From assembly GCF_024494595.1 (NCBI RefSeq), contig NZ_JANHDI010000001.1:124001-188000 (forward strand): a DNA stretch of 64,000 bases, in the 5' to 3' direction. Made by a program: the position numbers and the translations under genes. Under the pieces are notes generated by a model, which saw only the letters and a list, made by a program, of their open reading frames with translations, made no database searches and had not been told where the DNA came from. Position 1 is the first letter of the stretch, and each line of letters opens with the position of its first letter. Positions 35,783-53,910 of the stretch are shown here, in pieces. This DNA comes from Halobellus rarus (GTDB taxonomy: Archaea > Halobacteriota > Halobacteria > Halobacteriales > Haloferacaceae).

Positions 35783-37081
35783 ATGTTTGACGGATTAAAG
35801 AAGAAACTCGATAGCTTCCGGGAGGACGTCGAGGAGACGGCCGAGGAGAACGCGGCTGAGGAGGCCGACCTCGACGACGAACCGGCCGCCTCCGGCGACG
35901 CCGCCGACGCTGAATCCCCCGAAACCGAGTCCCCGGACGCGTCTCCGGGCTCGCAGGCGGATTCAACGGCTCCGTCGGTGGGCGTCGATGCCGAATCGGC
36001 CGCCAGCGACGCTTCGGAAGCAACGGCCGTCGCCGACGATGAGACCATCGACGACGTCGAAGCGACGACCGTCGACGACTCCGAAGCGAAGCCCGCCGAG
36101 GGCGACGGTTCCGAACGCGACAGCGACGGGACCGAGTCTCTCGCCTCCGAGGAAGCCGCCGCCGCGCTCCAAGAGGACGCGGCGGACGACTCGGGGCCCG
36201 GCCGACTCAAGCGCGCGGCGGCGTTCGCCACGGGGAAGATCATCATCGAGGAGGAAGACCTCGAAGATCCCCTGTGGGAACTGGAGATGGCGCTTCTCGA
36301 GAGCGACGTGGAGATGAACGTCGCCGAGGAGATCCTCGATACGATCCGCGAGAAGATGATCGGCGAGACGCGCGCGCAGGTCGAGACCACGGGCGAACTC
36401 GTCCAGACCGCGCTGCACGACGCCCTCTACGAGGTGATCAGCGTCGGGCAGTTCGACTTCGACGAGCGCGTCGCAGAGAGCGAGAAGCCGGTGACGATCG
36501 TCTTCACCGGCGTCAACGGCGTCGGCAAGACGACGAGCATCGCGAAGATGGCCCGGTACTTCGAGAACCAGGGCCTCTCGGTCGTGATGGCGAACGGCGA
36601 CACCTACCGCGCCGGCGCGAACGAGCAGATCCAGAAACACGCCGAGAACCTGGACACGAAGCTCATCACCCACGAGCAGGGCGGCGACCCCGCGGCCGTG
36701 CTCTACGACGCCGTCGAGTACGCCGAGGCCCACGACGTCGACGTCGTGCTCGGCGACACCGCGGGTCGGCTCCACACCTCGAACGATCTGATGGCCCAGC
36801 TGGAGAAGATCGACCGCGTCGTCGACCCCGATATGACGCTGTTCGTCGACGAGGCCGTCGCGGGCCAGGACGCCGTTGAGCGCGCGAAGACGTTCAACGA
36901 CGCCGCCGAGATCGACGGGGCCGTCCTCACGAAGGCCGACGCCGACTCCAACGGCGGCGCGGCCATCTCCATCGCCTACGTCACGGGCAAGCCGATCCTC
37001 TTTCTGGGTACCGGTCAGGGCTACGACGACATCGAACGGTTCGATCCCGAGCGGATGGTCGAACGGCTCGTCGGCGAGTAG
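35783..37081 (+). CDS. ftsY: SRP receptor FtsY
   Basis: GTPase receptor for the signal recognition particle, targeting translating ribosomes to the membrane. The 432 residues have an acidic N-terminal A domain (about 1-140, with Asp/Glu/Ala repeats), a helical N domain, and the G domain with GVNGVGKTTS (243-252), DTYRAGA (273-279), DTAGR (325-329) and TKADADS. Length is normal for halophiles. It is the last gene of the run starting at rpl39e. An 80-bp inverted-repeat element begins 57 bases after its stop. Confidence 0.96.
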   Translation: MFDGLKKKLDSFREDVEETAEENAAEEADLDDEPAASGDAADAESPETESPDASPGSQADSTAPSVGVDAESAASDASEATAVADDETIDDVEATTVDDSEAKPAEGDGSERDSDGTESLASEEAAAALQEDAADDSGPGRLKRAAAFATGKIIIEEEDLEDPLWELEMALLESDVEMNVAEEILDTIREKMIGETRAQVETTGELVQTALHDALYEVISVGQFDFDERVAESEKPVTIVFTGVNGVGKTTSIAKMARYFENQGLSVVMANGDTYRAGANEQIQKHAENLDTKLITHEQGGDPAAVLYDAVEYAEAHDVDVVLGDTAGRLHTSNDLMAQLEKIDRVVDPDMTLFVDEAVAGQDAVERAKTFNDAAEIDGAVLTKADADSNGGAAISIAYVTGKPILFLGTGQGYDDIERFDPERMVERLVGE

Positions 37082-37137
37082 TCGTAGCCGCCCGGTTCCT
37101 CGACAGTCTCCCCAAACTACTCGATGCCGGGGCAGTC

Positions 37138-37217
37138 ATACTGTCGGCTGTAAATCTGCGAAGCATTCCGCGACCCCGGGGTCGCGGATCTCCCGAAATA
37201 GTTACAGCCGACAGTAT
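37138..37217. repeat. 80-bp element with perfect 16-bp terminal inverted repeats
   Basis: ATACTGTCGGCTGTAA (37138-37153) is exactly reversed and complemented at 37202-37217 (TTACAGCCGACAGTAT). Inside is a second perfect 20-base palindrome, CCGCGACCCCGGGGTCGCGG (37169-37188). The right repeat touches the stop codon of the convergent acetyltransferase gene at 37217. The long perfect repeats look like a MITE or a strong two-way terminator. Confidence 0.85.
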
Positions 37218-37807
37218 CACCGTTCTGCCGGCGGTCGCTGTACCGCCTCCACGATCGCGGCGTCCAGAGAGAGCTCCATCGAGAGACCCGTCGCCTTCCG
37301 TTCGGTAACCTCGAAGTCGACGTTCCGGTAGACGGAGATGGCGCGGCGGTTCTCCTTCGCGACGTCGAGTTGAAGCGCGTCGTGGCCTCTGTCGGCGGCG
37401 GACGCGATGAGGTGCTTGATCAGTTCGGAGCCGACCCCGCGGTTCTGATAGTCGTCGTGAACGAAGATCACGAACTGGGGATCTTCGGTCGTGGCGGGGA
37501 CGACGCCGACGTGTCCGACGACGCGATCGTCGTCGACGGCGACCAGGTTCCAGCCGTTCTCGGTGAGCCTGGTCAGCCACTGTTCGAGCCGGTCTCGATT
37601 CGCCGGCGGCAGGCCCATCGTGCGGTTCGCCGGATCGAGGTCCTCGTACATTCTCACGACCGCGTCGAACTCTCGATCCTCGTAGCGGCGGACGAGTAGC
37701 GGGGTTTCCTCCCCGTCGATGAACCGGGGACACCGCGGCGGACAAAACGGCGTCCCGGTACACTCCGAGGGGTCCCAGTAGGTGCATCGACTGTCGGATT
37801 CGTGCAT
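37217..37807 (-). CDS. GNAT-family N-acetyltransferase with an N-terminal Cys cluster
   Basis: The 196-residue protein has a GNAT core from about residue 35: VRRYEDREFDAVVRMYEDL, the acetyl-CoA-binding strand-loop region DYQNRGVGSELIKHLIASA (about 125-143) and the final ISVYRNVDFEVTERKA. The first 30 residues carry four Cys (8, 16, 22 and 26, within CTYWDPSECTGTPFCPPRC), which could bind a metal. Acyl acceptor unknown. ATG 37805-37807 is chosen. Its stop codon abuts the inverted repeat element, and it interrupts ftsY and srp54. Confidence 0.87.
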   Translation of the reverse strand: MHESDSRCTYWDPSECTGTPFCPPRCPRFIDGEETPLLVRRYEDREFDAVVRMYEDLDPANRTMGLPPANRDRLEQWLTRLTENGWNLVAVDDDRVVGHVGVVPATTEDPQFVIFVHDDYQNRGVGSELIKHLIASAADRGHDALQLDVAKENRRAISVYRNVDFEVTERKATGLSMELSLDAAIVEAVQRPPAER

Positions 37808-53732: not shown

Positions 53733-53910
53733 TTAGGTGCTTCGTCGCTCACTCGATCGACGGCCCGGGCGGCGAAGAGTTGGACGCCCCGCCGGGTACG
53801 GGGACGCGTCGGCCGCGCCCGAAAACTCGAATTCGTGTAAACTCCCGCGAGCGACCGTACTGTCGGCGGAAACCCGTATCGCTTATCCCCCAGCGCCGCA
53901 ATCGCCGCGT

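Follow-up and report, generated by a model that had tools for sequence, protein, structure and literature searches.

A 78-bp palindromic MITE in a stop codon of Halobellus rarus, probably moved by IS630-type transposases with TNA target duplications

The window, a 64,000-nucleotide stretch of the Halobellus rarus genome, contains a short inverted-repeat structure between two convergent genes, and the question is whether it is a miniature transposable element (MITE) or a strong bidirectional terminator, as the original prediction allowed. On the left is ftsY (35783-37081, + strand), an open reading frame with SRP-receptor GTPase motifs readable in its sequence. On the right is a putative GNAT-family acetyltransferase gene (37217-37807, - strand), which has orthologs in the congeners G118 and G088 and whose name is taken from the original prediction. 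The perfect 16-base ends predicted for the structure are present: ATACTGTCGGCTGTAA occupies positions 37138-37153 and its exact complement positions 37202-37217. The structure had been described as an 80-bp element. It is real, but sequence, folding, and family copies define a mobile unit of 78 bp (37139-37216), and the outermost A/T pair belongs to a TCA...TCA direct repeat. The terminal inverted repeats of the 78-bp element are perfect and 15 bp long, with TACTGTCGGCTGTAA at 37139-37153 (+ strand) and its exact complement at 37202-37216 (- strand). The expected nesting of a second perfect palindrome is also found, with a length of 22 bases rather than 20; this inner palindrome, TCCGCGACCCCGGGGTCGCGGA (37167-37188), is the foldback centre of a quasi-palindrome that spans all 78 bp and is centred at 37177/37178.

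The element is too small for a gene and has no coding capacity. The predicted folds of both strands are far stronger than those of dinucleotide-shuffled sequences (z-scores of -5.1 and -8.3) and are equalled by none of 200 shuffles. Comparison of the element with Rfam gave no meaningful match, comparison with the phage collection gave no match, and a literature search for the end sequence found no occurrence. One end-like match within the window, TACTGTCGGCGGAAA at 53858-53872, is solitary, has no partner, and is probably due to chance.

The element is flanked by TCA on the left (37136-37138) and on the right (37217-37219). The original prediction placed the right end in contact with the GNAT stop codon; the location is correct, but the right TCA is the stop codon itself, read as TGA on the - strand. 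In G118, which belongs to the same genus (GNAT 92% identical), a 95% identical copy of the element is present at the same site, with the left TCA reading TCG. In G088, also of the same genus (GNAT 91% identical), the element is absent and there is one TCA at the same GNAT stop, GCCGGTCACCGTTCTG; a separate difference of about 28 bp is found at some distance to the left. The single TCA in the G088 ortholog indicates that the element was inserted in the GNAT stop codon, and that a 3-bp duplication rebuilt the stop. A duplication of TA was considered and rejected, since GTCACC, rather than TCATATCA, is found at the empty site, and since the middle base is the same in 163 of 175 family pairs with TNA on both flanks. 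A second, weaker empty-site comparison is provided by Halomicrobium sp. LC1Hm, in which an element flanked by TAA/TAA lies where a helix-turn-helix gene has its stop codon; the counterpart of this locus in Halomicrobium mukohataei reads CTAA and lacks the element. The stretch beside the GNAT gene of G079 is not alignable with the locus.

The observation expected to support the MITE reading was the presence of several copies with short target duplications elsewhere, and these exist together with the orthologous empty sites. Among the 209 distinct copies collected, 184 are exactly 78 bp long, 14 have 77 bp, eight have 79 bp, and three have 80 bp. Identical 3-bp flanks, nearly all of the form TNA, are found in 164 of the 209, compared with a mean of 67.7 and a maximum of 83 for shuffled flanks; about one-fifth of the copies have flanks that are not identical. 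The target consensus of the family is CTSAG. The element thus combines short non-coding sequence, terminal inverted repeats, a target-site duplication, a dispersed multi-copy family, and ends shared with an autonomous transposon, all of which characterize MITEs. The opposite pattern, one copy per genome fixed at the same place in distant relatives, is contradicted by the locus as well, where one close relative shares the copy and another does not.

The 78-bp MITE family is haloarchaeal and class-wide. The stretches with copies that come from named genomes, at least 120 in number, are all haloarchaeal by name except one. Matches to the window copy occur in 20 of 148 genomes sampled from the same family, and the Halobellus congeners G033 and G053 (Halobellus salinus) carry about 100 and about 60 copies, respectively. 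In the H. rarus genome the window copy is the sole intact one. A degenerate 78-bp copy (C18:66122) lies directly at the TGA that closes an open frame, a 77-bp relic is found at C20:219787, and further single ends remain. The one copy under a non-haloarchaeal name lies on a 4.6-kb contig (L258) binned as a Nitriliruptoraceae bacterium metagenome-assembled genome, which may be a haloarchaeal mis-bin or a transfer. Two copies are interrupted. The one at L102:2914-3073 is broken by another palindromic MITE, TAGTAGCG...CGCTACTA, with TA flanks and ends that resemble those of ISNma7-type IS630 elements, and the one at L116:6973-7298 is split by an insert of about 248 bp that appears to duplicate CACGTA.

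The ends of the MITE are matched by those of IS630-type elements (L338, L342, L347, L355, and others). These form a group of two-ORF transposons of about 1,070 bp with the left end TACTGTCGGCT / TACTGTCGGCTGAA and the right end TACTCACGGACATAAATACGTGAAGA, and their transposase belongs to the IS630 family (DDE_3), with NF033545 and PF13358 both above the cut-off. In a set of 18 copies, which leaves out the TA-flanked subgroup of L337 and L339, the flanks are identical TNA in 12, mismatched as TCA/TGA in five, and TCA/TAA in one. A further copy with TGA/TGA flanks is present in Haloarcula sinaiiensis (L383). An intact transposon of the group is found in the same genus, in Halobellus G068 C1 (L354), where it extends from a left end at 472 through ORFs at 517-1062 and 1005-1538 to a right end at 1541, with TGA/TCA flanks. 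A CRISPR array with seven copies of a repeat of about 30 nt, spaced by 66-68 bp, adjoins this transposon (L354:1-600).

The similarity of the MITE arms to these transposons changes along their length. Positions 1-12 have a mean identity of 0.94 to the transposon left end (0.35 for shuffled sequences) and of 0.61 to the right end. Positions 13-30 have a mean identity of 0.70 to the right end (best 0.94, shuffled 0.38) and of 0.50 to the left end, and the motif TACGTGAAGATATT of the right end is found again in the MITE arms. The arms of the window copy match the left end in 12 of 12 positions (1-12), the left repeat beginning with the same 12 bp as transposons such as L355, and the right end in 12 of 18 (13-30). 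Because positions 13-30 resemble the right end, the arms look hybrid, and the natural reading is that both would consist of an outer left end joined to an inner right end. The comparison of ends suggests that the ~1,070-bp transposons are the likely autonomous partners of the MITE. Pairs of ends separated by long distances near MITEs were dismissed as chance pairings or two separate MITEs.

In the genome of H. rarus itself the IS630-type matches are limited to two distant ones, with identities of 39% and 26% and an internal stop in each, and a close intact partner was not found in its one draft genome (97% complete). Since only distant transposase remnants are kept, the window copy is probably stranded, as judged from this one draft genome.

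Taken as a whole, the locus is very probably explained by a MITE moved in trans. An IS630-type transposase supplied in trans would have bound both hybrid ends and excised the element, which would then have been inserted at a TSA trinucleotide, preferably within CTSAG, with a 3-bp stagger that duplicated TCA. The target would have been the GNAT stop codon, and the insertion would have been tolerated because the duplication remade the stop. The presence of the copy in G118 suggests that the insertion predates the split of H. rarus from G118, after which the copy would have become stranded.

A fixed bidirectional transcription terminator between ftsY and the GNAT gene would account for the strong hairpin on both strands and for the convergent orientation of the genes. 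As the origin of the element it is highly improbable, and this part of the original prediction is not supported: the same gene pair, with a 91% identical ortholog, occurs without the element in G088, so that the position between these genes is not conserved. Intrinsic termination in archaea depends on U-rich tracts, and a T run follows neither arm. According to an approximate codon-usage gene caller, copies are present in all four gene arrangements, roughly as often as each arrangement occurs among the gaps. Of 150 copies, 11 lie inside predicted genes, although 75% of weighted TNA targets are coding. The duplication coincides exactly with the stop codon of a neighbouring gene in 36 of 139 intergenic copies (26%), whereas non-coding targets would lead one to expect 15% (binomial p of 0.0008, for copies that are not independent). 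The pattern, in which the stop-codon excess is modest and dependent on approximate gene calls, fits purifying selection together with a target among whose forms are TGA and TAA.

The same excess could be cited for a variant in which the element originated as a MITE and the host retains its hairpin for termination, RNA stability, or a nucleoid function. Evidence for such retention could also be seen in the pattern of change within the family, which was analysed in 29 clusters at 80% identity and compared with shuffles and slid registers. Pairing reaches 0.93 in the outer arms. In the inner stem (positions 26-39) it is 0.73, above the shuffled maximum of 0.67, and this stem contains 48 double-change cells compared with a shuffled maximum of 32, with slid registers performing worse. 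In these clusters, pairing of positions 16-25 in the middle of the element does not exceed chance. The counts, which are blind to relatedness, point to coordinated change and not to its cause: selection on the structure, selection on transposition, or template-switch correction of palindromes could each have produced it. Many copies are also decaying, those in H. rarus being mostly relics, and retention by the host for the hairpin is unlikely. The state found most often at positions 16/63 is a C.C mismatch, present in 101 of 184 copies, and its asymmetry gives the palindrome an orientation. It is more doubtful than host retention that another transposase, for example of the IS5 type, mobilizes the family and that the likeness to IS630-type ends is convergent. 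Some IS5-type elements also generate 3-bp duplications, and DDE_3 transposases were not found in G033, G101, and G111, all of them rich in copies, nor was an IS630-type partner in G033. However, the outer 12 bp of the MITE are the same as those of the IS630-type left end, TNA duplications are common in both, and the right-end motif recurs in the arms. An IS5-type (PF01609) partner was ruled out among the DDE_Tnp_1 loci of G033, G053, and a Natribaculum plasmid, where 45 matches were obtained and none of the 30 loci examined has matching ends.

The 78-bp family has sibling elements, which were revealed by a search for TNA-flanked ends beginning with TA. Small elements of this kind include TACGGATTATTGTA (79-80 bp), TACGGAAAGTTGTA (80 bp), TAGTGATTGGTGCG (80 bp), TAGTGATTATTGCG (108 bp), and TAGGGATTAGCGTA (98 bp). 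Their sizes cluster at 78-80, 98, and 108 bp, and haloarchaeal plasmids (L268, L269, L273, L274, and L275) carry elements of about 108 bp, a second size class in which the ends are similar and the duplication is again TNA. A near-perfect 34-bp palindrome with TCA/TCA flanks, TACGGTCGGTTGTA / TACGGTCGGTTGTACCGATTTACAACCGACCGTA (L218:7048-7081), is perhaps the smallest member of such elements. One sibling-type end adjoins an IS630-like transposase. Following this transposase led to numerous IS630-type transposons that have two ORFs, a length of about 1.12-1.15 kb, the ends TAGTGATTA, TAGGGTCGG, and TACGGTCGTGCG, and mostly TNA duplications.

In the transposase tree, TNA-duplicating groups occupy two places, TACT and TAGT/TAGG/TACG. 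Groups flanked by TA, with TACTGACGG ends or of the ISNma7 type, are positioned beside the TACT group, and haloarchaeal relatives of both types appear to duplicate TA. The shift from TA to TNA may have been one event or two, as some nodes are modestly supported and the root is arbitrary. We consider it somewhat more probable than its negation that haloarchaeal IS630-type transposases shifted from TA to TNA one or more times, perhaps on two independent occasions, and that each sublineage spawned palindromic MITEs of fixed length (78-80 or about 108 bp), the 78-bp arms combining an outer left with an inner right end and TSA targeting permitting harmless insertions in stop codons.

Elements of the IS630/Tc1-mariner group duplicate TA (PMC2170065, PMC8533490). 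The two-ORF haloarchaeal representatives ISNma7, ISNpe3, and ISNamo16 share with the partners described here the transposase family, the length of about 1.07-1.15 kb, and short terminal repeats, but the duplication differs. The transposase assignment is to the IS630 family and the duplication is the 3-bp TNA rather than TA, and the MITE is therefore classed as moved by IS630-type transposases and not as a standard IS630 element. Within the IS630-Tc1-mariner group, a 3-bp duplication in place of TA is also known from the Fot-type pogo transposons of eukaryotes, which duplicate TAA (PMC7386202). These are a separate lineage, and the duplication of the present elements is TNA with a variable middle base. 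Haloarchaeal ISH2 is 531 bp long, is moved by the ISH8 transposase, and has a 10-bp duplication, and the duplications of the Halobacterium elements described with it are 5-10 bp (PMC10264941). Like ISH2 and the MITEs of Haloquadratum (PMC3119063), the present element is non-coding, shares its terminal repeats with transposons, has a target duplication, and would be moved in trans; unlike them, it is only 78 bp long, palindromic over its full length, fixed in length class-wide, and flanked by a 3-bp TNA. The small mobile repeats (SMRs) of Haloquadratum have no target duplication and no transposon match, and its PATEs have no terminal repeats (PMC3119063). They are likewise small haloarchaeal repeats without a transposase, but the 78-bp family combines a target duplication with terminal repeats and with a transposon that it matches.

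The analysis yields a MITE family that extends across the haloarchaeal class, along with the transposons that are its likely autonomous partners. New are the TNA rather than TA duplication in IS630-type elements, the fixed-length palindromic MITEs, and the sibling families. The partners represent an IS630-type lineage with a 3-bp in place of a 2-bp duplication, and the MITEs provide tiny defined substrates with which it may be asked why the transposase would prefer hybrid ends, and why the MITEs keep exactly 78 bp and the palindrome.
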